NCBI GenBank assembly: GCA_027459625.1
Contig: DAIDHP010000036.1
Location: 1-40,985 of the forward strand
Source: Chthonomonadales bacterium
GTDB lineage: Bacteria > Armatimonadota > Chthonomonadetes > Chthonomonadales > CAJBBX01
Length of the DNA stretch: 40,985 nt
Direction: 5' to 3'
The position numbers were made by a program, and so were the translations under genes. Position 1 is the stretch's first letter. Every line of letters starts with the position of its first letter. The notes below the pieces were generated by a model. That model was not told the DNA's origin, did not search any database, and worked only from the letters and a program-made list of their open reading frames with translations. Of the stretch, positions 1 to 16,954 are shown in pieces.

Positions 1-662
1 CGAACAGAGATCTCTCAAAGGGAAGGACTCGCCCATATCCGTTTCAAAGCCTGAACGGCATTATTCCTGATTCGAACTGTAGATCAATACGCCGAGGATG
101 GAGTTAAATTGGTTTCAAAGCCTGAACGGCATTATTCCTGATTCGAACCCCAGGACAGGGAAGATTTACAAATCATCGCCGAAATGTTTCAAAGCCTGAA
201 CGGCATTATTCCTGATTCGAACGCCTGGAACAAGACTGTTTACGGAGACTCTGCCGCAATGTTTCAAAGCCTGAACGGCATTATTCCTGATTCGAACTGC
301 CAAACTGCAAGTGAGGCACCTGAGGAAAAAAGGGTTTCAAAGCCTGAACGGCATTATTCCTGATTCGAACGGCGGTGGTCTCCGGCGGAGAGGCCAATAG
401 AAACTACGTTTCAAAGCCTGAACGGCATTATTCCTGATTCGAACGAAGTCTCATTGAATCAGGACGGGAGTATTACCGTCGTTTCAAAGCCTGAACGGCA
501 TTATTCCTGATTCGAACGCCCGGCCGGGAAGGCAGTGGTTGTCTACGTTGTGTTTCAAAGCCTGAACGGCATTATTCCTGATTCGAACGACTTAATCGAG
601 GTAGCAGACGCCCAGAATGAAACAAGTTTCAAAGCCTGAACGGCATTATTCCTGATTCGAAC
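1..662 (-). CRISPR. CRISPR array, 37-bp repeats, truncated at the left edge
   Basis: Nine full, identical 37-bp repeats start at 41, 112, 186, 261, 334, 408, 481, 552 and 626. The last 5 bases of another repeat lie at 1-5, so the array continues beyond the window. The nine spacers are 34-38 bp. Read on the minus strand the repeat begins GTTCGAATCAGG and ends GGCTTTGAAAC. The final eight bases, TTTGAAAC, resemble the usual ATTGAAAC 5' handle of type I/III crRNAs, so I infer minus-strand transcription, the same direction as the cas operon, with the leader at 663-832. No repeat is degenerate, which fits a recently active, leader-proximal end. No Cas6 gene is seen in the window, so the crRNA processing enzyme must be elsewhere or another nuclease must do the job. 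Confidence 0.98.
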
Positions 663-832
663 CCTCAAGCGTGAATTACACGCTCATTTGCGCTAACCTC
701 CCAGCCATGAATTTGATTTCCCATGATTCCATCCATTTTACCCGCGAAAACATGAATTTCACGTTCAATTATTCTGCGCTAACCCCCCCCGTTTTTTGCG
801 CTTTGCAGGGTTAGCGCAAAAGTTTGCGCCAG
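663..832 (-). promoter_or_regulatory. Probable CRISPR leader, with an inverted repeat
   Basis: This 170-bp gap between the cas2 stop and the first repeat has no ORF and is AT-rich in parts, as expected for a leader. It holds the 10-mer TGCGCTAACC at 689-698 and 775-784, and its reverse complement GGTTAGCGCA at 809-818. The last two can form a hairpin with a 24-base loop just after cas2. A run of eight C follows the second copy (783-790). The hairpin may serve as a partial operon terminator, and the repeated 10-mer may be a leader anchoring site for Cas1-Cas2 or a host factor. Both roles are inference from position only. Confidence 0.6.
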
Positions 833-1123
833 CTAAATAATACGCGCGCCATCCCTTTCGATGTAAAAGGGTCGCCCCAGTGTGCGCACCTTATCCAAAC
901 AGCTCATACATAAAAAGTATACCCGAAAGCTGTCATTTTTGTCAACATATGTTTTTGCGCGATCCAATACGGTTTTTAATTCATTTTCGGACAAGTCGGC
1001 TTCGAATACGCTCAGTTGAAGTCTATCGCCATAGTCCAGCAGCATCTCCGCAAGTTTATGTCTCTTTTTATCATCCTCTATGTCATAGCAGATGAGGTAT
1101 CTTGCTCTGCTCTGTCCGGGCAT
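833..1123 (-). CDS. cas2: CRISPR-associated endoribonuclease/adaptation protein Cas2
   Basis: At 96 residues this has the usual Cas2 length. The N-terminus RYLICYDIEDDKKRHKLAEM shows the conserved first strand ending in an acidic turn, with Asp14 as the family metal-site residue. The mid-protein segment RLQLSVFEADLSENEL is the typical second strand (QxSVFE). Cas2 forms the dimeric core of the Cas1-Cas2 integrase that inserts prespacers at the leader end of the array. The start is supported by GGAGGA about six bases upstream of the ATG. The gene follows cas1 by 11 bp and is the last gene of the operon, directly beside the leader and array. Confidence 0.96.
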   Translation of the reverse strand: MPGQSRARYLICYDIEDDKKRHKLAEMLLDYGDRLQLSVFEADLSENELKTVLDRAKTYVDKNDSFRVYFLCMSCLDKVRTLGRPFYIERDGARII

Positions 1124-1134
1124 TTTCCATCCTC

Positions 1135-2139
1135 CTAATAAAATACATATGGCTGATAGTCGCTGTTTCCCAAAATCGTTTCTTTCATGCGAAATGCCTG
1201 ACGATTGAATAAATCTCCATATGTGGAGGGCTTTTCTTCCGCTCCGTATTCGCGATTTACAAATTTTGACTGCAGCGTCTGATGGTAGAATTCAAAAAAT
1301 CTTTTTCGCCCTTTCTCATTCAGAAAAACTCCAGCTTCACCCCGGTTGTCAAAATCATTATTCACCAGCACTCTGCGATTGATGATGCTTAAAACAAGCC
1401 GGTCTATTACAGGCTGCCTGAATTCCTCCACTAAATCCAGAGCCAGCGAAGGTCGTCCATATTCCATCTCATGAAAAAAACCAACCTGCATATCCAGCCC
1501 CTGCCCCGCGAGCGCTCCCGCCATCTCCGTGCAAAGCAGTGTGTAACCAAAACTGAGCAAAGCGTTAACAGGATCTTTCGGTGGTCTGCGTGACCTGTTT
1601 AGAAATGTGAACTCAGTTCTAACCATGCGTCCAAAGACGCTGAAGTATATCTTAGCCGCTTCTCCTTCCGCTCCCATTAGTTCCGCGATGCTTTTGCGTG
1701 CTTTCAAAGATTTTCTGCAATCGTCCATATTCTTGATAGCATCAGCTATGTTCTCGTCCGGATGATTCCTATTGTATCTCTGGAGTATGAACCGTGAATT
1801 GCGAATTTTAGCATCTACAATGGTTTCAGCTATACACATTCTAAAGTCCATATCGTCATATCGCCGGAATTGCGCCATTTTTATGAAAATATTTTTACTT
1901 TCCGCAGGCTGAAGCCTTCCGCGAAACCTTCCTCCGAAGGATAGCAAAACAGTCTCGATTCCACCATCCAAAATTGCAGCCATTGCAGGAGCGGATAGTT
2001 CCACATTTCCGTAAAGAACGATGCGTTCCAAGTCACGAAGATGAATCACATCAAGAATTGTGTCTCCTTTTACCACCTTAAGGCGTTTTCCTATAAGCCG
2101 AATGCTGGAGCCTTGCTCATGCAGATATAAGGTGATCAA
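1135..2139 (-). CDS. cas1: CRISPR integrase Cas1, TTG start
   Basis: The 334-residue protein starts with the typical Cas1 strand ITLYLHEQGSSIRLIGKRL and the repeated strand-turn pattern of the N-terminal domain (ERIVLYGNVELSAPAM). The helical C-terminal domain holds the metal site: Glu in LMGAEGEAAKIYF (about residues 155-167), His in GFFHEMEYGRPSLALDL and Glu in the following LVEEFRQPV helix. Cas1 catalyses both transesterifications of spacer integration. The start codon is TTG and overlaps the TGA stop of the upstream RT-primase gene as TTGA, with GAGGA nine bases upstream. This suggests translational coupling of Cas1 to the RT-primase. In many type III loci RT and Cas1 are fused; here they are separate but coupled. 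A YIPY-type start with ATG is not available nearby. Confidence 0.96.
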   Translation of the reverse strand: MITLYLHEQGSSIRLIGKRLKVVKGDTILDVIHLRDLERIVLYGNVELSAPAMAAILDGGIETVLLSFGGRFRGRLQPAESKNIFIKMAQFRRYDDMDFRMCIAETIVDAKIRNSRFILQRYNRNHPDENIADAIKNMDDCRKSLKARKSIAELMGAEGEAAKIYFSVFGRMVRTEFTFLNRSRRPPKDPVNALLSFGYTLLCTEMAGALAGQGLDMQVGFFHEMEYGRPSLALDLVEEFRQPVIDRLVLSIINRRVLVNNDFDNRGEAGVFLNEKGRKRFFEFYHQTLQSKFVNREYGAEEKPSTYGDLFNRQAFRMKETILGNSDYQPYVFY

Positions 2140-4805
2140 GAATTACGATCCTCACCTTCTTCATGAATGTCTTTTTCTTCGCTCATTGCGCTCTCTTCAA
2201 ACATATCGGACAGCACCTGCCGCATCATTTCCAAATCTTCATCTGACTTCTCTTCAATAGGTCTGGATAATGAGCGGGGATGATTTGATTTTCCAATAGG
2301 TTTTGGCTCACTTGCCAGTAAATCCAGAGGAGAATGGAGTTGAAAACTGCAATTGCATATTATTTCATCATTATCCTCTTCCAGCCATTCTTTAATACGT
2401 CTGCATGTAATGCAGGGGTGACTTTCATCAAGAGAGGCTAAGTATTTTTCCGAGACGGTTTCCTTGTAGTTACTGCATGCCGACAAACATTTGCGCAGGT
2501 ATGTCTTTCCTTCTTCACCCATACGCCCTAATGTGTATAAGAGAATGAGTCTTTGGATATGTCTTAGATGCCCGAGTGAAAAGGCTCTATCTGCCAGTGT
2601 TCGTATTACTCCGCAGCCATCCAGGAGTTTAAAAACGGAACCGCGGATTGCAGCGGATTCCTTTTCTAATCTTGCTGATTTTGGCTGGCTACGATCTTTC
2701 AGTTTATGGATATAAAGTTGAGCGTTTTCGGCGGAGATGCTTCTCATTTGTTTTAGCGCCCTATCTAGGCTGGGAATGAACTCTCCATCATCCGTTAGAA
2801 ATAAGCATCTCCTTCCGCTTACTGGATGTACGCCAAAGGGAAGTTTAATAGCATCGCCCAGTTCGGGTCCCGTCCATTCGGTATGCCTTGGAAATACTTC
2901 GATATGCACGCCCTTTTTCAAATCCGCCGTTAATTCCGAAAGAATCAGCCTGGCGAGACGCCTTCCTGTTTCAGCGGAAATCGGCTCCGAGAAAAACAAC
3001 CAGATGTGGTATCCTTTTTTTCCACTGTATTCAAGAGAATGAGGAATATCCAATTTTCGGCATACTTCACCGATACTTTCCGAAACCAATCCGGCTTGCT
3101 TTGTATGATCTTCCTCCATGCAATCCTTGGGATGTATGCCGGGGGCGGAATCGACATCAATGACCACCGTTCTTATTGTTCCATCAAGCCTAAGCGGATA
3201 TATGGATAGCGTCTCTTCTCCTGCAAGATGTTTCCTAAATATATCCGAGGTTATATGCCCTGAACAAGATAAGAAAGATATATTATTTCCATTATGTCCC
3301 AGATAAGCAAATACATCTTCACGTCCTGAAAAGAAGGAAAGAAATGTCTGAATATCATCATCCGATATTTTGGAGATTTCCATTACGTCTGATTCATCGT
3401 TATGAATGATCTGTTCAGTTGTAAGGATAAAAGGAGTAGAATCTTTCCGATAATAATTATGCCAGCCTCTAATAATTGCGGGGGATTGATCCGGACTAGC
3501 CATAACCAGCTTTTCATTAAGTCGAACAATAGAAGCCGGGGAAGGTTTTCTTCCCGAAGCGTCGAAACGGAAACCAAGGAAAGTAAACCCCGCATGGAGG
3601 TGCTTTATGAAAGTTTTATCTGGTTTTAAGGATAATCCCAGTTTCGATTTCAAAAATCCCTCGGTTTCCGCCAAAGCCAGTTCGGCTTCTCCTTTTGCGC
3701 CGCAAATAATAACCATATCATCGCCATATCGAATGAGATTGCACCCAATACTTATCATGTGTTTATCATATTCTGCGAGAAAGAGATTGCTGAATAAGGG
3801 TGATGTGGCAGCGCCTTGATGTATTCCTTTATTCGCTTGCTGGTTTCCGGATGAAATGCATCTGGATATTAAAGTCAGAGTGAATGGATCCAATACAAGT
3901 GAGGATAGCTTATCCAATAAAATCGCATGTGAAATCGAGTCGAAAAACGAGTCAATATCTGTTTCCGCCACCCAGTTCTGTCCACTTTTTAATAATCCTT
4001 CAATAGTTGAGAGTGCATGGTGTGCGCAGCGTCCCGGTCTGTATGCATAGGAACAATCCGGCAGCAGCGGTTCGATGAGGGGCAGCAAAGCGGCATGCAA
4101 TGCCTGCTGAACAATCCTATCCTGGATCGAGAGTATAGCTATGGTGCGGGCGCCGCCAGATCTTTTTGGTGTTGTAAACAACCGCGGCGGGAGGGGAGAA
4201 TACGTTCCTTTTATCAGCATGGATCTTAGGTTTTCCAGTCTCTTGCCGGCGTTCTCCGAATAGTCTCTGATTGACACATCATCAGGGCCTGCAGCTCCAT
4301 GATTTAGCTCCACACGATGCCAAGCTTTTAACAACGTATCCGGATTAGTGATGAATTCCTTTAGACTTTTCGGTGATGTATTTCTTAATTGATTTCTATG
4401 GGGAATCGTCGCAGATGGAGTGGTCTTAAGGTTTGGCGTTTCGCTGGTCTTAGATGGGTTTAACTGAAGCATTAAAGATGGACCCAAGCCAACTGTATCG
4501 CCGGAATGGATTTCACAGGTTTCGCGATGATGAAGCCAATGATCGTTCACACGAGTACCATTTACACTATGATCAGTTATTACGAGATGTCCTGAGGAAA
4601 AAGAGATGGTGGCATGATCTCTTGATACGGCGGGCGGATCATCAGGGTCTAAAAGCGGACTTCTGCTGCGCCCTCCCCTCCCAATAATCATAGGAAGATT
4701 TTGAATGGCAATTCGCCTGCCAGCTTCAGGGCCATTCATCACATAAAGAGCAAGAGGAGCAATTACATATGTATCGCGATTATCATTTTCATCCGCCATT
4801 AGCAT
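2136..4805 (-). CDS. FHA domain-reverse transcriptase-archaeo-eukaryotic primase fusion (RT-CAPP-like)
   Basis: The 889 residues form three modules. Residues about 20-115 are an FHA domain, with GRG at 42-44, SRDH at 61-64 and NG at 82-83, the canonical phosphothreonine-binding positions. A Thr/Pro/Ser-rich linker follows (118-145). Residues about 150-460 are a group-II-intron-like RT: ETDIDSFFDSI (motif A, Asp283), QGAATSPLFSNLFL, RYGDDMVI (Asp362-Asp363, YGDD) and a maturase-like GWHNYY. Residues about 480-700 are a primase-polymerase: VIDVD (Asp550, Asp552), YSGKKGYHIWL (His600) and KLPFGVHPVSG. After 720, a helical Cys region (C731, C773, C777, C798, C801) resembles the PriL-type Fe-S/Zn module, and the tail is acidic. 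RT-CAPP fusions next to cas1-cas2 are known (CRISPR-associated prim-pols); the FHA addition is unusual. A role in RNA- or primer-derived prespacer synthesis is inferred. The start may be ATG at 4805 or 4799; the GGAAGGGG site suits the second better. Confidence 0.93.
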   Translation of the reverse strand: MLMADENDNRDTYVIAPLALYVMNGPEAGRRIAIQNLPMIIGRGGRSRSPLLDPDDPPAVSRDHATISFSSGHLVITDHSVNGTRVNDHWLHHRETCEIHSGDTVGLGPSLMLQLNPSKTSETPNLKTTPSATIPHRNQLRNTSPKSLKEFITNPDTLLKAWHRVELNHGAAGPDDVSIRDYSENAGKRLENLRSMLIKGTYSPLPPRLFTTPKRSGGARTIAILSIQDRIVQQALHAALLPLIEPLLPDCSYAYRPGRCAHHALSTIEGLLKSGQNWVAETDIDSFFDSISHAILLDKLSSLVLDPFTLTLISRCISSGNQQANKGIHQGAATSPLFSNLFLAEYDKHMISIGCNLIRYGDDMVIICGAKGEAELALAETEGFLKSKLGLSLKPDKTFIKHLHAGFTFLGFRFDASGRKPSPASIVRLNEKLVMASPDQSPAIIRGWHNYYRKDSTPFILTTEQIIHNDESDVMEISKISDDDIQTFLSFFSGREDVFAYLGHNGNNISFLSCSGHITSDIFRKHLAGEETLSIYPLRLDGTIRTVVIDVDSAPGIHPKDCMEEDHTKQAGLVSESIGEVCRKLDIPHSLEYSGKKGYHIWLFFSEPISAETGRRLARLILSELTADLKKGVHIEVFPRHTEWTGPELGDAIKLPFGVHPVSGRRCLFLTDDGEFIPSLDRALKQMRSISAENAQLYIHKLKDRSQPKSARLEKESAAIRGSVFKLLDGCGVIRTLADRAFSLGHLRHIQRLILLYTLGRMGEEGKTYLRKCLSACSNYKETVSEKYLASLDESHPCITCRRIKEWLEEDNDEIICNCSFQLHSPLDLLASEPKPIGKSNHPRSLSRPIEEKSDEDLEMMRQVLSDMFEESAMSEEKDIHEEGEDRNS

Positions 4806-4827
4806 TGACCCCTTCCGAATAGAGGAA

Positions 4828-6057
4828 TTACCTGTGTCTGGAGGATAGCTTTACTCTTAAAAAAAGATATGCAACGATCAGAATAAGAATGAGAAATGAT
4901 CCAGATATGGCAATTGCATTGAGATGATAATTTACCCAGCTATAGGCCATACGCAGAAATGTGTTCACAATTATAAAAAAAAACAAGGTGATAAGCAGTG
5001 CGTCAATCGGATGTCCACATGAGAACCTAATACCTTTCCAGGCGCATTTGCTTACGGCATATGAAAATCGCCATATTTTGCGTATTAGCCACTTCAGAGT
5101 ATTGATTGCTATATTCGCAAATGTGAGCTTTGATCTTTGGAATGCATCAGGATGTGCCAGCGCCATTTTAAGCTGTCTGGCGGACTGAAATCTCCTTGAA
5201 GGATTGATCTCCATGGCCGCTGCAATTACGGACTCGAGCCCACCCCTGATTTCGGGACGATAAATATGCGGAGGAGCATATCTGCCTGCGATTAATGCAC
5301 GATCATTGGCGAATGGTAAATTTCCAGTGAGGCACTCATACAGAACACAGCCCAGCGAAAAAACATCGGATCGTTCATCGATAATTCCCTGGAGTGTTTC
5401 CGGCGCGTAATAACCTGGAGTTCCAACACGGCACTCCGGATTCCTTACAAGGATTCCATATACATTAAAGTCCATTAACAATGCAGCGCCGCTGCCAGTC
5501 AGCCATATATTGGAAGGTTTCACGTCTCCATGTATTACATGTTTGTTCAAGTTAAGGTAATCAAGAGCGCTGCATATCTGCCCAATGCAAGATATTGCGG
5601 AATAGAATGGCATTTGCCCGTAACGATCCAACACTGCGCGCAAGTCCGCTCCGGGATAAAGCGGCATTACAATATATGTTACGCCCAAAAGCGGGTCGGA
5701 TCCAGCATCATAGAGTGGCATTAAATTGGGATGTTGTGAAACACTTTGAATTCGAATCTCGTCCATTGCGAGCATGCCGCCATGGACTGAATCATACATT
5801 TTAACGGCAACCCAACGATGAAGCAACATATCGAATGCAGAATGTACGGATGCAAAGCCACCACAACCAATACGCTGGGCGATTCTGTATCTGCCGGCGA
5901 GGATGTCTTCCGTATTTACAAATGATTTGCCTGGTTCAGCTTCCTGCGGATTGACGGCGACGCGATGAGTTCCTCCTGTGGCGGCGTTCCCATACCACGC
6001 GGTAAGAAGATCATCGTCATCCGACATGGGGTTCATATCATCGTTCCGGAACTTCAT
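4828..6057 (-). CDS. Membrane-anchored Ser/Thr protein kinase (Hanks type) inside the CRISPR operon
   Basis: The kinase domain shows a Gly-rich loop IGCGGFASV, the VAVK lysine, an HGDVKPSN catalytic loop (HGD in place of HRD), LLMDFN (DFN in place of DFG, the metal-binding Asp kept), GTPGYYAPE and DVFSLGCVLYECLTG. The catalytic Lys, Asp and Asn are all present, so activity is likely. After a basic linker, two hydrophobic segments close the protein (near IDALLITLFFFIIVNTFL and AISGSFLILILIVAYLFL), placing the kinase domain at the cytoplasmic face of the membrane. No extracytoplasmic sensor follows. I place the start at 6057 because GGAG lies six bases upstream; an upstream ATG at 6129 adds 24 residues but lacks a good ribosome site. 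The gene lies 22 bp before the FHA-RT-primase gene, so the FHA domain is the obvious reader of its phosphorylation. Confidence 0.93.
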   Translation of the reverse strand: MKFRNDDMNPMSDDDDLLTAWYGNAATGGTHRVAVNPQEAEPGKSFVNTEDILAGRYRIAQRIGCGGFASVHSAFDMLLHRWVAVKMYDSVHGGMLAMDEIRIQSVSQHPNLMPLYDAGSDPLLGVTYIVMPLYPGADLRAVLDRYGQMPFYSAISCIGQICSALDYLNLNKHVIHGDVKPSNIWLTGSGAALLMDFNVYGILVRNPECRVGTPGYYAPETLQGIIDERSDVFSLGCVLYECLTGNLPFANDRALIAGRYAPPHIYRPEIRGGLESVIAAAMEINPSRRFQSARQLKMALAHPDAFQRSKLTFANIAINTLKWLIRKIWRFSYAVSKCAWKGIRFSCGHPIDALLITLFFFIIVNTFLRMAYSWVNYHLNAIAISGSFLILILIVAYLFLRVKLSSRHR

Positions 6058-6186
6058 GATTCGCTCCATTGCTGCGGACAAATAAAAGCCTGGATCGCTT
6101 GATTCCCAGAAACACCGCGAAAAATCCATATGCCGAAATCCATTATAAGATCATACGCGCATAAAGATGATGTAAAGGGAATTATT

Positions 6187-7341
6187 TCAGCGTTGATCTT
6201 CCAGCCATGCATTCAGCGCTGCGACAGCCGCGTTCTTCTGGCCATCCGTTATTGCGGAGGTCTCCACAATGAATTTGACCGTATAGGTTCCATTGGACTT
6301 AATGCCTTCAACACCTTTTGCGCTAAGATGGAAATGGGTGCGTGAGGATAGATCGCCATTGTATTTCCATGTGTAGCACTTTTTTACAAACCTCAACTCG
6401 TTGGTGATCTTTTCCATAAACTCCCTAATTTCCGGATGCGACTTCATATTTCCGCTATCCTCCCATTGGGGTTTCTTTTTCTGTTCTTCTGGAACATCTG
6501 CAGGCAGAACTGAATCTCGTTCCGTTTGAAAACGATCTTTGAAGGTCTCCTGAAAAATAAGTCCCACCGGAGAAAGCTCGATATAATCCACGCCATCTAT
6601 TTTACTTCGCTCTATGAAGGATTCCACTCTATCATCCCCTTCCAATATCTCCTTATAATCCGCAGCCTTCACCATATCGGCGGTTCTCGAGAGATCGTAA
6701 AGCATGCCCGTGGTGCGCATCCATAGCTCGTAATCCAAAGCGATTGGCATGGGGGGAAATTCAATCACTTCATTGAATCGCTCATGTTTGTAGTATACCG
6801 GCACGTTGATCGCCTGACCTATAATCGTGGCGATTGCCACCTGAGCTTTGTACCCTCCTGTGGCGTTGATGCCGCATTTCTGATATTTGTTGTCAAGGAT
6901 AATCTTGCACATTTGCTTTGCCAGATTTCTCAGTCCGGTGGTTCTAAACAATTTAGGTTTTTCATCCTGAAGACCATCTATCTGAACAGCTTTTGCGCGT
7001 TCACCGTAATAACTGCAAAGCGTCGTGGCGATATTCCTGCCATTATCCGTATCGGAATGCAGGAAAAAAAGTTTCGTTTCTGAATTGATAATCTCTTTTT
7101 CGCTCAGTCCATAAAGTGAATTTATCTCCGCCCCGCAGATTCTATCCTTCCCATCAATCTGACGCAAAGCTGTACCCAGCGCATTCCAGTCGGACTGATT
7201 GTACGGTTCAGCGAGCGAAAGGTACATTCCAGATAGATCCTTATCGTTATTCGCAGCGTTTACATCCAACCCTTTTTTAAGATTTTCCATGTTTGGGAAA
7301 AACATGCTCGTGCCTACGGTGCATATCATTAGTTTAAGCAT
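6187..7341 (-). CDS. CARF-domain protein (APE2256-like), possible RelE-like C-terminus
   Basis: The N-terminus MLKLMICTVGTSMFF is a CARF first strand-loop and NATGGYKAQVAIATIIGQ (about 160-177) is the second conserved ligand-binding loop, as in the APE2256/ring-nuclease clade that binds cyclic tetra-adenylate. A middle segment near YIELSPVGLIFQETF looks like a winged helix. The last ~90 residues (KKCYTWKYNGDLSSRTHFHL onward) are short and strand-rich. By analogy with Cami1, a CARF-RelE effector that cuts ribosome-bound mRNA, this could be a RelE-fold ribonuclease, but catalytic residues are not certain. The alternative is a ring nuclease that degrades the signal. An upstream in-frame start at 7389 exists; 7341 is preferred for its AGGAGG six bases ahead and because it puts the CARF strand at the N-terminus. 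Confidence 0.85.
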   Translation of the reverse strand: MLKLMICTVGTSMFFPNMENLKKGLDVNAANNDKDLSGMYLSLAEPYNQSDWNALGTALRQIDGKDRICGAEINSLYGLSEKEIINSETKLFFLHSDTDNGRNIATTLCSYYGERAKAVQIDGLQDEKPKLFRTTGLRNLAKQMCKIILDNKYQKCGINATGGYKAQVAIATIIGQAINVPVYYKHERFNEVIEFPPMPIALDYELWMRTTGMLYDLSRTADMVKAADYKEILEGDDRVESFIERSKIDGVDYIELSPVGLIFQETFKDRFQTERDSVLPADVPEEQKKKPQWEDSGNMKSHPEIREFMEKITNELRFVKKCYTWKYNGDLSSRTHFHLSAKGVEGIKSNGTYTVKFIVETSAITDGQKNAAVAALNAWLEDQR

Positions 7342-7385
7342 CAAATGCCTCCTGGATGGCGGATAATAACGTTCGAGTGATACGG

Positions 7386-9716
7386 TCATTTTTTATATTC
7401 GTATATCTTAAATGGTTCCTTATCATCCCATATAAATGTAAATCTTATGTTTTTAGCGCTTTTCAAAGATATTTTGCCAATGTAATCCACGCTGTCCTGC
7501 GTGAGTTCGCCGGATATTTCATTCTCTATCCATTGCCTCACCGTTTTGCAATTGGAGATTGAGGATGCCTGTTTTTTTGCATAGTTCACGTCATCAAGGT
7601 CTTTTCGCAGATTCTCATCCTCCTGCAGGGTGATACGATAGCTCCAGATATCGTCAGAGAAGTCATCATCCGGCAGAATAACGATGCTTTTCACCGCAGC
7701 GTGTTTTAGGAAATGCACCTCTTGCCCGGATCGTATTATAAACTCATCAAATTCTCTTGCCATCTCCAGCCAAAGCTGAGCGGAAAGAATCTCTTCGGGT
7801 TTAAACGAAACGGCGCCAAGCTTACCAGCGTAGTTCAATGCGCATATTTTTCCGAAATATCGGCGAGTATACCAAAAATTATCCCAATATTCTTTATCCA
7901 ACCCAGTTGGAATATCTTTTGTATGCTGATCCAACCATATGTTTAGTTGATCCATAAAAGTAGCAGCTATCCATTTATCAACCTGCATATCGCGTTTCGG
8001 TAAATTTTTTATGCATCCGGCGCTGTTAAACAGATACACTTGCTCACGCAATCGGATTTTGAATGTTTTGGCATCATATTCCAATTGTTTGCCGGATATC
8101 CGCCACTGTGTCTCCGCGCCCACCCGATTAAGTTGATTATCGCATCCATCTATCAATCGCATCAGCACCACAAGTTTGGGAAAATCCACATCCGAAAGCT
8201 TACATGAATACTTTAGCGGGGCGGGATATGTTTCACATAGGTAAGGGCATGTTATAGAGTCAACCTTGTTCCAACCTGTGGACTTCCTGTGATAGATACA
8301 CAGATGCTCAATTGCCCGGGAAATATCTTTACCACCTTCCCAATTAATTTGCGATTTAAGTTTCTCATTGGTCAGTCTGTGATATGCCAGAAAATGGTGC
8401 AGATTGCGAATTTCACTGCGAAACAAGGGTATATGGGCTCCGGTGTCTTCAATGCATTTCCCATTTAAATCCTCTTTGAGATAAAGACGATCCAAGGTGT
8501 GTCCGCAATCATGCAGGATAATTGCGCCGAAGAGAATGATGCGCTCGTTGTCTGTTAAGCTATCCGAAATGGGTGTGAGGAATTGCTGCGCCAGACGCAT
8601 GAGATCATAGTGGTGATCGGCTGAATGGTTTGCCGCCATGGGTAGCTTATCCCCCTGCCAGATCATCGGGCCAATGGTGGAGGAAAGATGTGATAAGACA
8701 TCCCTCCAATAATCGTTGATTATGAACTGTTTTAATATTTTTTCCGCATAGTGTTGAAAGTGGTTTTTGTTTCGACTTTCCCGAAACCCATCCTCCAAAA
8801 TGCGACTGATGGATTTGTCAAATGAGTTACCGATTTTATCATTTGCGACGGATCGCATCCGCAGACTTAATGCGCGTTCATATATTTCAGCCCATTTTTT
8901 ACTCGATTTTTTCCCGAGCACCGTGGCATCGAGGAGCACTTCCTCCTGCAGCCAGGCATCGTTATCCGCACCCACGGGATAATCCGGGATTTCCACGATG
9001 TTGGGGGTGGATTCATGCAGATAATGAATCCGGGTATCCTCATTTCGCATAAGCTGGGATACCAATGTGGATGTAACGATAGCTCCTTTGAACCCCCCGG
9101 TAGGATTAGTAATCACTGTAGATTTACGAGATTGCATTAAATCCCTCAAAGTCGCAATAAGATTTGGCATTCCATTGCTGGTGAAGGTATCGCCAATGAC
9201 TTTCAGCCCGGGAATAATAATGAGCCCCTCATCACGCTCCGGCACGGAAAGTGAGGTACCCTCAAAGGTGTGCGTTGGTGACGTTTTGGCAAGTGGGAGT
9301 GGCGAATACGCTCCTAGATAGCAATTCGATTTGCGTATTGATTTAATAGAATCCCGCATAATCCGAGCGCATCGATAACCATCAAGAGTGTCTGATGATA
9401 TGAATACAAATTCACATGGAAAATATTCCGGATAATTTTGGGACATTATAGACATACATGTGATTTCCACCGGAAGGACGTTCCCTGGATTTACAAAGCC
9501 TTGCCTTACCAGATTTTTTTTGATCATATCCCGAGCGAGAAGCTTTTTGAAATTCTTCGAGATGATTTTATAGTCATTCGAATTCATTGAATCATTCAGG
9601 TCGCTTATACGCTTATCTGAGCCTGCCTCCTTTCTTGCATTTCCTATGAGAGACGTTCCGACGGTTAAAATCAACAGTGTCTTCTGATCTTGCCCCTGCG
9701 TTTCATGTTGGCTCAT
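7386..9716 (-). CDS. CARF-HD domain fusion, type III signalling effector
   Basis: Residues 12-250 form a CARF domain with ILTVGTSLIG (15-24), VFISSDTLDG (104-113), NPTGGFKGAIVTSTLVSQL (204-222) and IHYLHEST, the same clade as the neighbouring CARF protein. Residues about 360-560 are an HD phosphohydrolase domain. Visible are HSADHHYDLMRLA (His364 or His368), ILHDCGHTL (His402-Asp403), CIYHRK (His476) and RLIDGCD (Asp523), giving a full metal-binding set. The remaining ~200 residues are unassigned. CARF-HD proteins are listed among predicted cyclic-oligoadenylate effectors; the HD domain could cut nucleic acid or hydrolyse nucleotides, including the signal itself. The gene starts 5 bp after csx15 stops, with GAGGTG as ribosome site, and its end is close to the next CARF gene. 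Confidence 0.88.
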   Translation of the reverse strand: MSQHETQGQDQKTLLILTVGTSLIGNARKEAGSDKRISDLNDSMNSNDYKIISKNFKKLLARDMIKKNLVRQGFVNPGNVLPVEITCMSIMSQNYPEYFPCEFVFISSDTLDGYRCARIMRDSIKSIRKSNCYLGAYSPLPLAKTSPTHTFEGTSLSVPERDEGLIIIPGLKVIGDTFTSNGMPNLIATLRDLMQSRKSTVITNPTGGFKGAIVTSTLVSQLMRNEDTRIHYLHESTPNIVEIPDYPVGADNDAWLQEEVLLDATVLGKKSSKKWAEIYERALSLRMRSVANDKIGNSFDKSISRILEDGFRESRNKNHFQHYAEKILKQFIINDYWRDVLSHLSSTIGPMIWQGDKLPMAANHSADHHYDLMRLAQQFLTPISDSLTDNERIILFGAIILHDCGHTLDRLYLKEDLNGKCIEDTGAHIPLFRSEIRNLHHFLAYHRLTNEKLKSQINWEGGKDISRAIEHLCIYHRKSTGWNKVDSITCPYLCETYPAPLKYSCKLSDVDFPKLVVLMRLIDGCDNQLNRVGAETQWRISGKQLEYDAKTFKIRLREQVYLFNSAGCIKNLPKRDMQVDKWIAATFMDQLNIWLDQHTKDIPTGLDKEYWDNFWYTRRYFGKICALNYAGKLGAVSFKPEEILSAQLWLEMAREFDEFIIRSGQEVHFLKHAAVKSIVILPDDDFSDDIWSYRITLQEDENLRKDLDDVNYAKKQASSISNCKTVRQWIENEISGELTQDSVDYIGKISLKSAKNIRFTFIWDDKEPFKIYEYKK

Positions 9717-9720
9717 CTAT

Positions 9721-10110
9721 TCACCTCGTTCGCCTCGCACTCTCACGAATTTCATTTAGGTTCAGTATCTCCGCCAGATCAAATACGGGGGGTGTCGCTC
9801 CTTCGCGCGGTTTCAGGCGTATGACAGTGGGAAAATGGCCAATGCGGCCATGCAGGTTAGCTAACATCAAAGCGGAAATCACATTTAAGGATGGAAGGTT
9901 TATCAAAAACCGTTCCGTCTGCCATTGATTCCCGCTGATAGGAACGCTATCCAAAAGTGCGTTCACCTGCTCCGCAAATGGCGCCTGGTGGTCAAACTGA
10001 GCCGTGGACTGGTGTGCGATTTCGATATCGCACCCGAGGCTCTCCCGGATTTGATATAGCTGCTCCTCGGTAAAAGGATGAGCGAAGTTGATAATCCTTA
10101 CGGAATTCAT
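9721..10110 (-). CDS. csx15: CRISPR-associated protein Csx15
   Basis: This small protein of 129 residues starts MNSVRIINFAHPFTEEQLYQ, the characteristic Csx15 N-terminus (NFxHPxTxxQ), followed by a predicted Rossmann-like alternation ending in SALMLANLHGRIGHFPTVIR. Csx15 is a type III accessory protein grouped with Csx16 and Csx20 as small CARF-related proteins thought to bind or degrade cyclic oligoadenylate. Its place between the RAMP genes and the two CARF effectors fits a signal-damping role. The start at 10110 has a perfect GGAGGA six bases upstream; the longer frame from 10125 would overlap the RAMP gene and lacks such a site. Confidence 0.8.
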   Translation of the reverse strand: MNSVRIINFAHPFTEEQLYQIRESLGCDIEIAHQSTAQFDHQAPFAEQVNALLDSVPISGNQWQTERFLINLPSLNVISALMLANLHGRIGHFPTVIRLKPREGATPPVFDLAEILNLNEIRESARRTR

Positions 10111-10121
10111 GATTTCCTCCT

Positions 10122-12431
10122 TCATTTAGTAGGATCATATGGGAGCTTGGGATTTGGATCTGTGAGCTTTGGCAAGGATAATTGTTTCGACTTATTTTTA
10201 TCATTGTGTGTGAACCATTCAAAGATATCCATGGTGCGATCACAAGACAGCCTGGGGTAGTGCACCTCATTGTGAGGAAACCCCTTGCTCGACTTCAGAA
10301 ACGCATTCAGGATATCACTTCCTTTAACCTGATTATTTTTATTACCATTGTTGGGTAACCAAAGGAATTGCTGGAACTGATCAACAAAGGCGTTCTTAAT
10401 ATCCTCAGCGGAGTTAGCGGTTTGCAAAACGGCGTTTAAGTCGCTGTAATATGCTGTCATTTGTATCGTGTCGGCGATGATGGAATTGCTATCATCCATT
10501 TCGAGCCTCACGCTGCCGAATCCAAGCGGTTTGCCTCCTCCCAGTTTATGAAAATGCTCATCGGGCATCTTCAGCAGCCAGATCAGCGCACCTAGTTCAA
10601 ACTTGGAAAGGTTGCTGAAATAAATATCAAACTTAAATACGGAGCCGTGATTCACCCAGCCTTTTATGGAACGATTTTGATCCGTTCTCTCCTTATCCCC
10701 TGGCGGCTGTCTGTAAAAGCATGTATTATTATTATTATTCGAATTCCAATATTCCTTATCGTACCATTGATGCGGGTAAACCTTTCGCCCGCGTATTTGC
10801 TTGCCGTTTTTATACGCCGCGACATCCCTTGAGATTTTGGATTTTTGCGGATCGCCATTGGCGTCTCCAAGATAGAATCTGCTCTGAGCGTGCTTGGGAG
10901 CAGCAAGATTGGCAAGCGGAAATCCTGCAGGATCAAAACCATTTTGCTCAAACTGAACACACTTGACATTCCCAATGCGCAGATTTCCCTTATAGGCGTT
11001 TTTCGCTTTATGGTCCTTAATATTGGCGTTCACCCAGCCAAACACCCTGTCTGCGGGGGAGAGTTGGTCGTAACAGGTGGCGGGGAGATGATTCCTCTGC
11101 TGCGATTTCTCTATGACCTCCAATGGTGTGTTTGGGCTTACATGGCGGGATATCTGTACGGGATAAAGATTTTTCAAACAAAATTTATGTTTAGCTGCAT
11201 TCCATTTTACTTCTGCATAACATAGTACACCATCCGTTAGTTTCATTCCCGCAAAGTGTTTGGACCACTCGCATGCACTGCATTTACTAGTTAATACGGA
11301 AGGACCTGAGGGTGGTGATTGTTTAACAAATTCCTCGTTTTCCCTATAATTCTTGATTAGTACATCCCATTTTCCCATTGCTCCACCAAGGGGGAGAGTA
11401 AGGCTGCCTATAAGTGTTTGTTCTATACTAGAATCATGAAAAAAAATCCGTTCATAATGCTTGTTTTCAGCATTCGGCCCTGATTCGAAAAAATAACCTT
11501 CATGCCAACCCGTGCCTGTGTGGGGGGATGTACTTAAATTATCTACATTAAAAAAATCGTAATTTAAATGGTTTAGTATTGTGATTTGAATCCAAACCTT
11601 ATCTCCATGGCTCAGAGTAGGTATGCCTGGGATTACATTCTTTGTATGCGGATCATATATGTTATAAAATGCAGCATACATCAGATTATTGTTTGGCTTA
11701 CCATTCCTTTGAATTGTTGATTTACCGGGTAACAGCCGCACTCTTAACCCCCCCCCCACCCCGTTTTCAATCCTCGCCGGCACAAGCTTTATTGCATCAT
11801 TAGTGGCGCCTCTGAAGCCCGTAACATCCTTGTAATCGTTGAACACTCCCATTCGTGAGTTGGTGATCGCCTCATAAGCGGAGCGCAGCATGCCCTTCAC
11901 GCCGGTAGGGGCGATGTATGGTTTGCCGTCCACCATTCTCAGGGGATATGTATAATGATCTTTTGGACTTTCAGTTTTGTGCTGCGCATCCGGCAATAGC
12001 AGGGGGGTTTCGACCGTCATCGTCACCCGCAGCCTGCCATGATACTTACCCTGAACATATATACCATGCGGCGGCGGGGGGGAATCCCCTATAATTTGAT
12101 CATCTGTCTTTCTTGGAGGCATTGGAATGAAATAATAGGGGTTGTAGAAGTAACCAGGCGGGGTATTGCCGGCTGCAGGGATATTAGCGGATTCAAGGGT
12201 ATTTCCGGGTGCAGGGATATGCGGTGGTATTTTTTCCCCTTGTGCATCTTGATCACTGAATAAATGAAGTATCAGCCCTTTATCATTCCATTCACATTTA
12301 TATTCACCCGCCACAAGATTTCCTGCGATAACAGTATTTATTTCTACTTCTTTCGGTTTATTTTGTTTTTCATTAAAATAGGATATGTATGGTATTCCAT
12401 TCCGTCTTGTTAGAGTAACATCTCTAATCAT
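10122..12431 (-). CDS. RAMP (Cas7-like) protein of the TIGR03986 type
   Basis: The 769-residue protein has a RAMP body. YHGRLRVTMTVETPLLLPD is the first strand (about 125-145), DGKPYIAPTGVKGMLRSAYE the conserved Pro-Gly-Lys-Gly turn, and LGGGKPLGFGSVRL the C-terminal Gly-rich loop. A CxxC pair (CSACEW) in the middle may bind zinc. The first ~110 residues are an added N-terminal domain. It should be a backbone subunit of the type III effector that binds crRNA and target RNA, comparable to the large insertion-bearing Cas7 of III-D complexes. The gene overlaps csx19 by 8 bp. It carries a run of ten C/G at 11748-11757, within the GVGGGLRV segment, which could slip. Ribosome site GGAGGTG precedes the ATG. 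Confidence 0.85.
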   Translation of the reverse strand: MIRDVTLTRRNGIPYISYFNEKQNKPKEVEINTVIAGNLVAGEYKCEWNDKGLILHLFSDQDAQGEKIPPHIPAPGNTLESANIPAAGNTPPGYFYNPYYFIPMPPRKTDDQIIGDSPPPPHGIYVQGKYHGRLRVTMTVETPLLLPDAQHKTESPKDHYTYPLRMVDGKPYIAPTGVKGMLRSAYEAITNSRMGVFNDYKDVTGFRGATNDAIKLVPARIENGVGGGLRVRLLPGKSTIQRNGKPNNNLMYAAFYNIYDPHTKNVIPGIPTLSHGDKVWIQITILNHLNYDFFNVDNLSTSPHTGTGWHEGYFFESGPNAENKHYERIFFHDSSIEQTLIGSLTLPLGGAMGKWDVLIKNYRENEEFVKQSPPSGPSVLTSKCSACEWSKHFAGMKLTDGVLCYAEVKWNAAKHKFCLKNLYPVQISRHVSPNTPLEVIEKSQQRNHLPATCYDQLSPADRVFGWVNANIKDHKAKNAYKGNLRIGNVKCVQFEQNGFDPAGFPLANLAAPKHAQSRFYLGDANGDPQKSKISRDVAAYKNGKQIRGRKVYPHQWYDKEYWNSNNNNNTCFYRQPPGDKERTDQNRSIKGWVNHGSVFKFDIYFSNLSKFELGALIWLLKMPDEHFHKLGGGKPLGFGSVRLEMDDSNSIIADTIQMTAYYSDLNAVLQTANSAEDIKNAFVDQFQQFLWLPNNGNKNNQVKGSDILNAFLKSSKGFPHNEVHYPRLSCDRTMDIFEWFTHNDKNKSKQLSLPKLTDPNPKLPYDPTK

Positions 12432-12966
12432 CTCTTTTCACCTCCAAACTTATAAGCCTTTCATCGAATACTGCGAAATTGCCACAGGGATAATCATTCG
12501 AGAAGTATTCACGCGTATTGAGCTGCACATACCGATTTGCTTGCACTTCGAAGGGAAGAGGAATCGTTCCAATCCGCGCCGAGGATACTCCGCCCCAACC
12601 ATTGGTGAATACCCCCGCCCCCTTTCCCCATAGCATGTAGTGATTTTCATCTGTTTCCACCGTATATTTATTCTTATCCCATTCGCCTTCCAGAATTTCT
12701 TCTTCGGCCTCTGTCAATACGGCGATTCGGGAATCCTCAAGCCATCTCAATTCCCAGTTCTTCGTGAAGACACGCGCCTCGTAGACATCGGTGATGGTGC
12801 AGTCATCTGTATGATTAACAAGCTTACCCGCCTTTAATTCTGCGAGAACGCATTCGGTTCGGCCGTAGAGCAGGGCGTAGCCATTCTGAGAAGTATTCTT
12901 CATTTTGGATAATGCTTCACTAAGCGTCATTATATCTTTGCTTATATAACAGATCAGGCTGCACAT
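12424..12966 (-). CDS. csx19: Type III-D accessory protein Csx19
   Basis: A 180-residue protein matching the Csx19 pattern: an N-terminal helix (TLSEALSKMKN), GYALLYGRTECVLAELKAGK near residue 30-50, then ARVFTKNWELRWLED and MLWGKGAG further on. Csx19 is a marker of subtype III-D and in the III-Dv complex is a structural subunit near the Cas10 end. The ATG at 12966 has GAAGGAG upstream and overlaps the preceding RAMP gene by 13 bp; a second ATG at 12930 lacks a ribosome site. Its presence is the main reason for calling this locus III-D rather than III-A or III-B. Confidence 0.8.
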   Translation of the reverse strand: MCSLICYISKDIMTLSEALSKMKNTSQNGYALLYGRTECVLAELKAGKLVNHTDDCTITDVYEARVFTKNWELRWLEDSRIAVLTEAEEEILEGEWDKNKYTVETDENHYMLWGKGAGVFTNGWGGVSSARIGTIPLPFEVQANRYVQLNTREYFSNDYPCGNFAVFDERLISLEVKRDD

Positions 12967-14561
12967 GTTTTTTCTCCTTCCCTCTTCAGCGCTTCTAATG
13001 CTTCATTCCATGCGCTTTTCAGTGCGACCATATCCATTTTCGTGAAAATCACCCCATTTTTGATCTCACAGTCCAGCCCGCCGCCCGTTATCTTGATATT
13101 GGTGACACTTATATCCCCCATGCCTCTGTTCACGGCGAATCCAAGCGGGATATCCCCTCTGGAAAAATCACGAAGCGTAAAAAGCAGGAGCGCATGGCAC
13201 GCTGCAATCGGATTCAGGTTGGCGTTTGATTGCGCATTCGCCGGGTGGCTATTATCCGAGTTGTTTGCAATGGAATCCGCGCAGGACGCCATCGCTTTCC
13301 TCAAACGGCTTGTATCCACCACAATCCTAATCGGTTCCCATTCAGCCAGGTGTGGCTCCAAAACTTGGTAGAGCGCGCTCTTGTTCACCGCATTCGTCCA
13401 TCTGTCTATGGCGGTGTGATACGCTTCCTGAAAACGTGGCTTGCACCTCTTATCAACAACATTATTCAGAGCCTCCTCGTCCGTGGCGTTGGCAACTTCA
13501 ACCCATTCACTTGAAGGGATTTTCTCCACGCCATAACAATCCGCGAAGCTGGCTGATCCTGAACCGGGTTTTATTTTGTACACCCGCACTGATAACGAAA
13601 GATGATTTTCAGGATCATGGGAGGATGAGCTATTCTCGGTTTCCGCGGCCGCCCCAAACAGCAGATCAGCCAATGGCGTTTTCACTTGATCAAGAAAATC
13701 AATGGGGATAGCGTCATCCCCAAGCATTGTGCGCACGATCTTCTCCGCTCTCGTACGCATAGCCCCCTTTATGGATGATCCAGGCAACAATAGGGCAAGC
13801 TCCCCCTTTTCATTCGTCGGCTCCAGCAGCGGAATGGAATCAACGACTATGCCATCATACCCGGCACGCACCATCATGGGTCCTGCCGGATTCCAATTAA
13901 TATTAATTATTACGCTTCGCGAGATATCCGTTTGGTCAACCGGAACATCCACTCCGGCTTTATCGCTTAGAAAAGCGATCATACCCTCCCTGGTTCCAAT
14001 ATCGAACTTTTTCAGGGATGCCTCTTTTCCTTGTGCAATTTTCACTTCGCCCAAGCCGCGCGTTTTGCATGCGCCAAACCGTATCAAACCATGCATTAAG
14101 CCATTCGCCAAATGCTTCAGCATTGATTCGCAACCGCTGCAATCCCCTCCCTCCGCAATATCCACCGTTATTCCAATGGTGAAGCGCGATCCCCGCGGAA
14201 GGACCGTCATATCATATTTGGCCTGGTACGCGGCCGTACCTGTAACGCGGTTAATGCCAACTCCATCGCGTATCTGCATAGATGAGCCGGATGGGAGGGT
14301 GATTATTGCATCCTCCATGCACACCGAAGAGGCGGATCCTGTATCCCCCTCACTCCCCCAGAACGACGTATCCATGCTTTCCCTCGCAAGCCATGCCTTT
14401 ATCGCTCCCACCAGACTGGTGCCGGGTATATACGGTTTCCCATTTCCATTCAAAGCCACCGTCATATCCTCGAATCCGGATTCCAGTCCGCCCACATGGA
14501 TAGCGGTCTGCGCTTCCAATCTCGCTTTCAAGACATATCTACAGCTAAGCTTCCTTGGCAT
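12954..14561 (-). CDS. Double Csm3/Cas7-like RAMP protein
   Basis: Two Csm3-type RAMP domains lie in tandem within 535 residues. The first has AQTAIHVGGLESGFEDMTV, KPYIPGTSLVGAIKAWL and a Gly-rich loop GACKTRGLGEVKI. The second has MVRAGYDGIVVDSIPLL, ALLLPGSSIKGAMRTRAEKI and GFAVNRGMGDISV. Each has an Asp where Csm3 keeps its target-RNA-cutting residue (FEDMTV and VVDSIP), so two cleavage sites at about 6-nt spacing are expected, as in the Cas7-2x subunit of III-Dv. I prefer the ATG at 14561, with AGGTGA upstream, over a TTG start at 14603 that lies deep in the csx10-like gene. It overlaps csx10 by 17 bp and csx19 by 13 bp. Confidence 0.88.
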   Translation of the reverse strand: MPRKLSCRYVLKARLEAQTAIHVGGLESGFEDMTVALNGNGKPYIPGTSLVGAIKAWLARESMDTSFWGSEGDTGSASSVCMEDAIITLPSGSSMQIRDGVGINRVTGTAAYQAKYDMTVLPRGSRFTIGITVDIAEGGDCSGCESMLKHLANGLMHGLIRFGACKTRGLGEVKIAQGKEASLKKFDIGTREGMIAFLSDKAGVDVPVDQTDISRSVIININWNPAGPMMVRAGYDGIVVDSIPLLEPTNEKGELALLLPGSSIKGAMRTRAEKIVRTMLGDDAIPIDFLDQVKTPLADLLFGAAAETENSSSSHDPENHLSLSVRVYKIKPGSGSASFADCYGVEKIPSSEWVEVANATDEEALNNVVDKRCKPRFQEAYHTAIDRWTNAVNKSALYQVLEPHLAEWEPIRIVVDTSRLRKAMASCADSIANNSDNSHPANAQSNANLNPIAACHALLLFTLRDFSRGDIPLGFAVNRGMGDISVTNIKITGGGLDCEIKNGVIFTKMDMVALKSAWNEALEALKREGEKTCAA

Positions 14562-16944
14562 CACTTTCACCTTTCGCCCTTTCACGGATTTCGCTCCTGA
14601 CAATTGCGTCTATCAGGCTCTTAACCGCATAATACCAGAGCTTTTCCTTCAGTCCTGTTTTCTCTTCTTCCTTACTGAATGTAATTAATATGGAATCCCA
14701 GGGTATTGAATCCTCCAGGCACTCCCAAATAACTTCTCGATTGTTAGTTATATAAGTGGTTAAAACGGGCTGATTAATGTTGGCGGTAATTCCAGAATTG
14801 ATGAAGTCAGTATTTAGTCCATTAAGCAACGCAGTTTTACGGATGGAATTTTCTGGCCATAGGACTTTATGTTTATTTCTTTTTCCAATTGAAATTAACC
14901 AGGAACATAATTGCTGGCTCCAACTATCATAATTCTTACCATCATCCGCAAGCCTCATCGTCCACATTCTCATCGCCTCGAGTTGGGAGTTATTTGGACT
15001 TTTTTCATTAATCGCCAAGCATTCTCTGCGCTTATTCAAATCTGCAGCAAAGGAGATAGCCGCATCGGATATGAGATTTTTCAATGCGGAAACCTGGATG
15101 GTTTCAACAATGGTTTTATTCTGCTCGTCTAAATCGACTATGCTGTCATCACTTTGTGATTCTTTCTTTTTTATGGTTATATCCTTTTTTATCTCAGGAT
15201 TGAATAAAACACGCCCATACCCCTCCGCTGTGCGCTCTCCGATGCCATTCAATTGAATTTCACGGAGAATATCCGTATTGATTGTTCCCATTACATTGAA
15301 TTCAACATAAGTCCCCGCCTTTAATCCCACAAGCGAGGGGCGAGGAAGGCCCCAGCTTGTCTGCCATGAATCCAATCTCCGCTGCCTGGCGCTGCTTTTT
15401 ACATATTGATCATCATCGATAACTGTAAGTGTCACTTTATTGGTTCTATCATCAGGCGAAGTAGGCTCGGATACCGATTCTGTCGATGGCGCGGCGGCAG
15501 ACGCATTCAGTCGAGTTTCCATTGCGTACTTTAAGGCGGTTACAGTCGGGGTTAGACGAAGCTTGGAATCCCTGAGCAGAACATCCGATACAAGCCACAC
15601 TTTGAGTGTGTCCCCTTCGCATATTCTGATGTCCGATATCTCGTCATATGACTCAATGCGAATGCTGCAAAGGCCGTATTCCGCATGTTTAGCGCTTCCG
15701 ATGCGCACGTCATCCCAATGCTTATTGTCGAGATCATCTTTGCGTATGCTCAGGAAGGCGATAAATTCCGTATTTGGAGCGATTGATTGCATGGTGTACA
15801 CGCCGTTGTCCTCAGGACGTTGAGTGCGATCGACCACAACGTTATGTGTAACAAGTGACAGATCAATATCCGCATACTGCATATTGCCGTTCTCAAGAAG
15901 AACGTACTTGTCTCTAATCTGCTTCAGTTGGCAGCTAAGATCTTCAATCTCCTCAGCCCTATTGTGGATCTTTTCAGCATCGTTCTTTTCTTGAAAAAGA
16001 CAAAGAGGAGAGGGTAAAGTTCGATTTTTTTCGGTCGAAGGGTTTGCATTTGTAATCGATAGACTGTTTTCTTTTAACTTCGTCGATACAAATCCAGCGC
16101 CAAGCTTGGAGGATAGTATAGGGAGGATGTAGGCTCCAGGTATGAAGTCCAGCGTTTCCACAATATTCCCGGTGGTTTTTGACATGATGCATACCGGAGA
16201 TAGGGTGCGGATGATTAATTTATAGGTGTGTATCTCCGCAGTATTTTGATCAGACTTATTGATAACTGAATTGCATCGAGTGGGTTCACAAATATTATTC
16301 TCCTCGAGGCATTTCAGCCAATTATTGTATTCAGGTATCAAATTGAATTTACATTTACCGGGACCTCTACGACGTTTGCCCCCAATACGCTCTGTCCATT
16401 TGCATCCGGAATGAAGGAGAGCCAATGCATTTTTTTGGGTTTTGTCATTATATTCGCACAAATCAAGCGATACCAGAGCAATAAGTTTCGCTCCCTTGCG
16501 CGCCATCTCCTCAAACCTTAAAAAATCCGCCTTTGCCATACCTGTTTTCGGGTCAATGCTGACACCGGGTTTGATGAAAGTAAGTTGCGATGTGAGCAGC
16601 GGTTTGTTTTTCAACAACACTCTTATTTTGTCCGAGTAATATGCGGAATTAATTTTGAGAGCTGCAGGAGTCGGCATATCCAGTATCCCGCTTGCCTTAT
16701 TTGGCGCAGGCTGACTTCCGAAGAGAATATCCACATATGTCGGCCAATTACCGCCTAAGGATTCCGCCACCGTCTCGCATGAATCCCGTAAAATTCCATT
16801 GCATGTCTTCCCGGGAATATAAGGAAATCCGTATTCATCCTTTCTGACAAGGCTATCGGTTCCTCCGGATCGCCCCATCCCCACACCGATATGCCAATCT
16901 GAAAGCATCTCAATTTGAAGGGTCAGGCTCTTATCATCGCACAT
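14545..16944 (-). CDS. csx10: Csx10-like RAMP protein (Cas5-type, extended)
   Basis: The 799-residue protein opens with QIEMLSDWHIGVGMGRSGG, then VRKDEYGFPYIPGKTCNGIL, the hallmark of Csx10 (LSDxHIGxG, xxPxIPGxxxxGxLRD). A Gly/Arg-rich loop (KRRRGPGKCKF) ends the first RAMP domain. A second region ends in GIGERTAEGYGRVLF, another RAMP Gly-rich loop. The last ~190 residues are mainly helical and could stand in for a Cas11 small subunit, which is otherwise missing from the operon; that would parallel the Cas7-Cas5-Cas11 fusion of III-Dv. The protein should cap the crRNA 5' handle in the effector. The gene follows cas10 by 10 bp with AGGAGCG as ribosome site. Confidence 0.85.
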   Translation of the reverse strand: MCDDKSLTLQIEMLSDWHIGVGMGRSGGTDSLVRKDEYGFPYIPGKTCNGILRDSCETVAESLGGNWPTYVDILFGSQPAPNKASGILDMPTPAALKINSAYYSDKIRVLLKNKPLLTSQLTFIKPGVSIDPKTGMAKADFLRFEEMARKGAKLIALVSLDLCEYNDKTQKNALALLHSGCKWTERIGGKRRRGPGKCKFNLIPEYNNWLKCLEENNICEPTRCNSVINKSDQNTAEIHTYKLIIRTLSPVCIMSKTTGNIVETLDFIPGAYILPILSSKLGAGFVSTKLKENSLSITNANPSTEKNRTLPSPLCLFQEKNDAEKIHNRAEEIEDLSCQLKQIRDKYVLLENGNMQYADIDLSLVTHNVVVDRTQRPEDNGVYTMQSIAPNTEFIAFLSIRKDDLDNKHWDDVRIGSAKHAEYGLCSIRIESYDEISDIRICEGDTLKVWLVSDVLLRDSKLRLTPTVTALKYAMETRLNASAAAPSTESVSEPTSPDDRTNKVTLTVIDDDQYVKSSARQRRLDSWQTSWGLPRPSLVGLKAGTYVEFNVMGTINTDILREIQLNGIGERTAEGYGRVLFNPEIKKDITIKKKESQSDDSIVDLDEQNKTIVETIQVSALKNLISDAAISFAADLNKRRECLAINEKSPNNSQLEAMRMWTMRLADDGKNYDSWSQQLCSWLISIGKRNKHKVLWPENSIRKTALLNGLNTDFINSGITANINQPVLTTYITNNREVIWECLEDSIPWDSILITFSKEEEKTGLKEKLWYYAVKSLIDAIVRSEIRERAKGESDAKEA

Positions 16945-16954
16945 TTGTTCGCTC

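Follow-up and report, generated by a model that had tools for sequence, protein, structure and literature searches.

Results

Gene organization of the CRISPR locus

In the window, which is the whole 40,985-nucleotide stretch of Chthonomonadales DNA that was analysed, the minus strand of positions 1-18412 was found to form one CRISPR locus. In the order of transcription it consists of cas10, cas7-type RAMP genes with csx19, csx15, a CARF-HD gene, a CARF7 gene, a kinase gene, a gene joining FHA, RT and AEP domains (FHA-RT-AEP), cas1, cas2 and the array; all gene coordinates given for the window refer to the minus strand. The array (30-664, no strand assigned) was identified with a repeat search and has nine 37-nt repeats (GTTTCAAAGCCTGAACGGCATTATTCCTGATTCGAAC) at a spacing of 71-75. 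A search with the array region for phage targets of the spacers gave no match. The cas2 gene (833-1123, 96 aa, Pfam 5.7e-20) follows cas1 (1135-2139, 334 aa, TTG start, Pfam 4.1e-95) after 11 bp, and cas1 overlaps the stop of the FHA-RT-AEP gene (2136-4805, 889 aa, Pfam and NCBIfam matches) by 4 nt (TTGA). The kinase gene (4828-6129), the FHA-RT-AEP gene and the overlapping cas1 were present where the original prediction had placed them, with a gap of 22 bp (4806-4827) between the first two. Promoter-like matches in this cassette were not above chance.

The genes transcribed ahead of the kinase encode a CARF7 protein (Cas_APE2256, 6187-7389, profile matches), a CARF-HD effector candidate (7386-9716, Pfam Cas_APE2256 and HD-CE) and type III-D-like effector proteins (9721-18412), the latter comprising csx15, csx19 located among three cas7-type RAMP genes, and cas10. 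Csx19 is a marker of type III-D systems, and the locus was called type III-D-like because both Csx19 (TIGR03984) and the III-D Cas7 profiles matched. Cas10 has a GGDD motif at residue 266, and no HD domain was recognised in it. Two tandem CARF proteins, one of them the CARF-HD protein, are thus encoded upstream of the kinase (6187-9716), and together with a GGDD-bearing Cas10 in which no HD was recognised their sequences suggest cyclic-oligoadenylate signalling.

The FHA-RT-AEP protein

Pfam matches on the 889-aa protein were FHA (3.4e-10), RVT_1 (1.2e-30) and AEP-TOTE (3.6e-31), and the NCBIfam profile for CRISPR-associated primase-polymerase (PrimPol) type A1 matched residues 475-863 (2.9e-67). 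The FHA domain spans about residues 20-110, followed by a linker (109-145), the RT (about 147-454, with RYGDD) and the AEP/PrimPol part with a C-terminal domain (about 475-865). The RT YxDD and the AEP DxD and SGxxGxH motifs are retained in the alignment. RT and AEP primase-polymerase are thus found in one polypeptide, and its gene adjoins cas1-cas2 within an array-bearing type III locus; the same holds for a related locus in genome G078, which has its own array. By its domains and context the protein is predicted to be a CRISPR-associated RT-primase (RT-CAPP).

The FHA domain (4482-4688) was identified by Pfam, by alignment with GarA and OdhI and by a genome hit. It has the GR, SxxH and NG pocket residues of a phosphothreonine reader (G42-R43, S61-R62-x-H64, N82-G83-T84), and R43, S61, R62 and G83 are common to all three FHA proteins aligned. 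An AlphaFold2 model of the whole protein had a mean pLDDT of 70.7, with a good core and a poor FHA domain; it was used solely for the linker, which is modelled as disordered. The linker had been described as Thr/Pro-rich at about residues 118-145 and proposed as a phosphorylation target. The composition was confirmed in the window; the conservation was not, as the corresponding part of the G076 protein has a single Thr. Phosphorylation of the linker is unsupported because its Thr residues vary between loci.

The membrane kinase

The kinase reading frame extends over 4828-6129, and the protein probably starts at Met25 (position 6057, the end coordinate of the original prediction), since this residue aligns with the start of the G078 kinase (MKFRND / MSFRED). 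Pfam Pkinase matched with 7.5e-33, and PknB aligned best, over residues 65-324. VAVK, E124, HGDVKPSN, DFN and APE are found in all three intact copies of the kinase, each of which retains the catalytic Lys, Asp, Asn and the metal-binding Asp of Hanks-type kinases. Many Hanks-type kinases, but not all, have an RD motif with a phosphorylatable activation loop. Here HGD, DFN and a short activation segment were found instead, and the window kinase has no Ser/Thr ahead of the GT of the P+1 loop. Activity is possible in non-RD kinases; DFN in place of DFG counts against taking it for granted, and kinase activity is only predicted.

Two hydrophobic helices (residues 374-392 and 406-424), about 14 residues apart, end the protein as a membrane hairpin. 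Outside the kinase domain no Pfam match was found, and no extracytoplasmic domain, PASTA or other sensor, was recognised. In most other Armatimonadota kinases that were compared, the motif is DFG, the segment is longer, and a single membrane helix is combined with a long C-terminal part. Because the hairpin and the short segment contrast with these, the CRISPR kinase appears to be anchored and to have no sensor for outside signals. The response to infection or to an outside signal proposed earlier for the system finds no anatomical support in so short a hairpin without a sensor domain.

In the N-terminal tail of the kinase, T43 of a TAW motif (T43-A44-W45, codons 5995-6003) was the sole Thr outside the kinase core that is invariant in the three FHA-associated kinases, and the motif is absent from the related kinase of G065, whose locus has no FHA. 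The alignment and a shuffle test make it a candidate docking phosphosite. In shuffled tails some shared 3-mer occurred in 2.2% of the trials and a W-containing one in 0 of 20000; the motif, including the restriction to W, was picked post hoc from three sequences, and it is therefore a lead only. An AlphaFold2 model of the kinase with three-sequence input (mean pLDDT 38.8) was not used.

Distribution of the kinase and the FHA-RT-AEP gene

When 291 Armatimonadota genomes were searched with the AEP part, RT-AEP loci turned up in the window genome (G000), G076, G078, G040 and G065. In three genomes of different families (G000, G076 and G078) an FHA-RT-AEP-cas1 cassette adjoins the kinase, so that the search for other such loci called for in the original prediction gave two further genomes. 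The order is cas6 (assigned by eye), kinase, FHA-RT-AEP and cas1 in G076, and kinase, FHA-RT-AEP, cas1, cas2, an eight-repeat array and then III-D-like effector genes in G078. As the interference genes around kinase and FHA-RT-AEP-cas1 vary between loci, the kinase travels with the adaptation cassette.

A profile built from the three kinases was run over the same 291 genomes and gave three matches at 740-765 bits (the intact loci) and one at 301 bits (G065), the next best being 191. The subfamily is thus found in four genomes, always beside RT/AEP, and absent from 287. Apart from the three intact loci, a full-length member occurs in the phylum only in G065, beside a degraded RT/AEP-cas1 locus without FHA. 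No such kinase was found beside 13 FHA-less RT-AEP loci within the reach of their contigs, and those genomes with an FHA-less RT-AEP that were searched had generic kinases only (best 163 bits). It had been proposed that the pairing would be accidental if kinase and FHA-RT-AEP occurred without each other at random; across the 291 genomes they are not randomly distributed, and the pairing exceeds chance and is not accidental.

In the G065 locus (L029:709-4788) the kinase is followed by an in-frame TGA and by hydrophobic helices that continue in frame into an RT without its first half; AEP and cas1 come next. The locus is either a pseudogene or a misassembly (MAG with 7% contamination). In G007, which belongs to the family of the window genome, and also in G011, an RT ending in the CAPP C-terminal domain, with no AEP primase domain, was observed (L030:7130-9871 and L030:5064-6377 in G007). 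The two G007 genes are on opposite strands, and one lies beside cas1-cas2. By sequence they may represent either ancestors of RT-CAPP or RT-CAPPs from which the primase was lost. The window genome also has a second, unrelated kinase-FHA locus with three related kinases and a small FHA protein (G000:C40:5500-19500, L242).

Outside Armatimonadota, FHA-RT-AEP was not found in a narrow contig pattern scan, nor in the sampled phyla of a cyanobacterium, a Planctomycetota MAG, a delta-proteobacterial MAG, Heliophilum and Poribacteria. The combination is rare there, rarity rather than absence being what such samples and narrow patterns show. Among the matches listed for viral contigs and plasmids there was the RT part only and no RT-AEP.

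Among the three intact loci the identity was 54-67% for the kinase domain, 56-66% for RT, 52-61% for Cas1, 37-59% for AEP, 38-49% for FHA and 15-33% for the kinase tails. The catalytic domain of the kinase is as tightly conserved as Cas1, which argues for a function shared with the cassette. The four CRISPR kinases are monophyletic (support 100/98), apart from the other kinases of the window genome, and the three FHA proteins group together in the RT and AEP trees (support 99-100). The three intact loci form one clade and are not independent gains, and therefore the kinase and the FHA may have been gained once.

Membrane helices in related RT-AEP proteins

In five RT-AEPs without such a kinase, N-terminal hydrophobic helices take the place of the FHA domain. 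These predicted membrane-anchored CRISPR RT-primases are from G040 (L002:496-3078), Poribacteria (L034:1521-4664), an archaeal-labelled MAG (L035:320-2923), Desulfovirgula (L036:963-3614) and Heliophilum fasciatum (L041:21-2717). Most of them are adjoined by cas1. Membrane-anchored RT-primases find no mention in the CAPP papers searched. A replacement of the helices by FHA was considered from the RT-AEP trees and set aside, as two AEP trees root differently and leave the direction of change unsure. With hhalign, no homology was found of the RT-AEP helices to the hairpin of the kinase. Membrane docking is not universal, since eight RT-AEPs (L058, L237, L238 and L276-L280) have neither FHA nor membrane helices. 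Just upstream of two helix-less RT-AEP loci, small membrane proteins were observed (L276:1473-3445 in G1078 and L280:7464-7838 in G1450), hinting at membrane association of these RT-AEPs; the former locus also has a gene resembling an NYN-type nuclease.

Discussion

RT-AEP fusions beside type III cas1-cas2 are known as RT-CAPP or CART-CAPP (Zabrady 2021, PMC8211822; PMC10415136), and the protein described here has the same domain order and motifs. The CAPP architectures given in the main texts of these papers are TPR-AEP, RT-AEP and AEP-helicase, and neither FHA nor a kinase appears there; in PMC10415136 the PP domain is described as inactive in the studied CART-CAPPs. Cas6-RT-Cas1 and RT-Cas1 fusions (PMC11014452) similarly combine RT with Cas1-Cas2 and acquire RNA or DNA spacers, but there RT is fused to Cas1, and AEP, FHA and kinase are missing. 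In the main text of a terascale clustering study (PMC10910872) adaptation modules are associated with RVT, AEP and transmembrane proteins, whereas neither FHA nor a pair of kinase and FHA-RT-AEP is mentioned. The words FHA and kinase are both absent from the 2025 CRISPR classification. Full-text literature searches that combined FHA with RT, primase, Cas1 and CRISPR, with incomplete coverage of subscription papers and supplements, gave no relevant paper. We thus found no description of a kinase/FHA layer on CRISPR adaptation, and an unnoticed listing is possible.

A membrane Ser/Thr kinase with an FHA reader is also found in PknB-GarA and PknB-OdhI, the best alignments being PknB for the kinase and OdhI/GarA for the FHA domain. 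In contrast to PknB, the CRISPR kinase lacks PASTA domains and any other sensor, and has a C-terminal hairpin, a non-RD HGD, DFN and a short activation segment. Unlike GarA and OdhI, the FHA domain here is fused to a nucleic-acid polymerase encoded within a CRISPR locus.

The observations cover the genes with their domains, the intactness of catalytic and pocket residues, and the way kinase and FHA-RT-AEP stay adjacent, co-occur and are inherited together; from these we infer that the kinase is active, which Thr it phosphorylates, that docking takes place and recruits Cas1-Cas2, and that spacer acquisition is affected. We propose, with a probability of about 50%, that the membrane kinase as writer and the RT-primase's FHA domain as reader are a dedicated pair that docks the proteins of acquisition at the inner membrane. 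Kinase, FHA-RT-AEP, cas1 and cas2 would form a four-gene acquisition cassette, in which the C-terminal hairpin would hold the kinase in the inner membrane. The kinase would phosphorylate a Thr, most likely T43 in its own N-terminal tail, and this phospho-Thr would be bound by the FHA domain. Such docking would bring the RT-primase, and via it Cas1-Cas2, to the membrane, where incoming nucleic acid could be copied into prespacers. The model is grounded mainly on the relatives, with helices on the enzyme itself in one case and FHA on the enzyme plus helices on the kinase in the other.

The main rival is a phospho-switch, in which the FHA domain would recruit the kinase and the kinase would phosphorylate RT-AEP, Cas1 or Cas2, turning acquisition on or off with the membrane being secondary. 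In mycobacteria and corynebacteria, PknB-type kinases both dock and phosphorylate GarA/OdhI-type FHA proteins, a precedent that gains weight from the alignments of both partners, and co-inheritance and intact motifs also fit a switch. We nevertheless consider it only a tentative alternative, as the Thr residues of the linker vary between loci, the kinase lacks a sensor domain that could time the switching, and no phosphatase was recognised among the scanned operon genes. It could operate alongside docking.

The non-RD HGD, DFN and short activation segment would also suit a weak or dead kinase that binds RT-AEP through a protein interface, with the FHA domain reading phosphates from other kinases, five of which are above the family cut-off in the window genome, or binding without phosphate. 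Such a scaffold is unlikely, since the three copies, although diverged, remain highly identical and have lost none of the catalytic residues, and the FHA phosphopeptide-pocket residues are retained as well. Even less probable is that the CRISPR operon carries the kinase as a separate antiphage effector of the abortive-infection type, with the FHA as a decorative fusion. The PADLOC PD-T4-6 and MADS kinase profiles do match the kinase domain, though generically, and kinases near CRISPR loci, beside vWA systems, are reported in the main text of PMC10910872. Such an effector would hardly stay in the same place, with changing interference genes on one side and FHA-RT-AEP-cas1 on the other, be absent from 287 of the 291 genomes, match Cas1 in conservation and have a membrane hairpin where the relatives carry RT-AEP membrane helices. 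Writer-reader docking is preferred because this one reading covers the adjacency, the FHA pocket, the kinase catalysis, the hairpin and the relatives.

From the interpretation given in the original prediction, the non-random writer-reader pairing and the placement in an adaptation cassette and at the membrane are supported, while linker phosphorylation and the response to infection are not. We put it at about even odds that a dedicated phosphorylation, with the membrane kinase as writer and the RT-primase's FHA domain as reader, positions the machinery for acquisition at the inner membrane or licenses it there, and that the RT-AEP branch is membrane-associated, either by fused helices or by phospho-docking. 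The kinase-reader pair and the helix-fused relatives bear on how cells locate and control spacer acquisition, and they make both phospho-control and membrane acquisition testable with a few point mutants. If true, phosphorylation would be newly linked to the tethering or switching of CRISPR memory formation.
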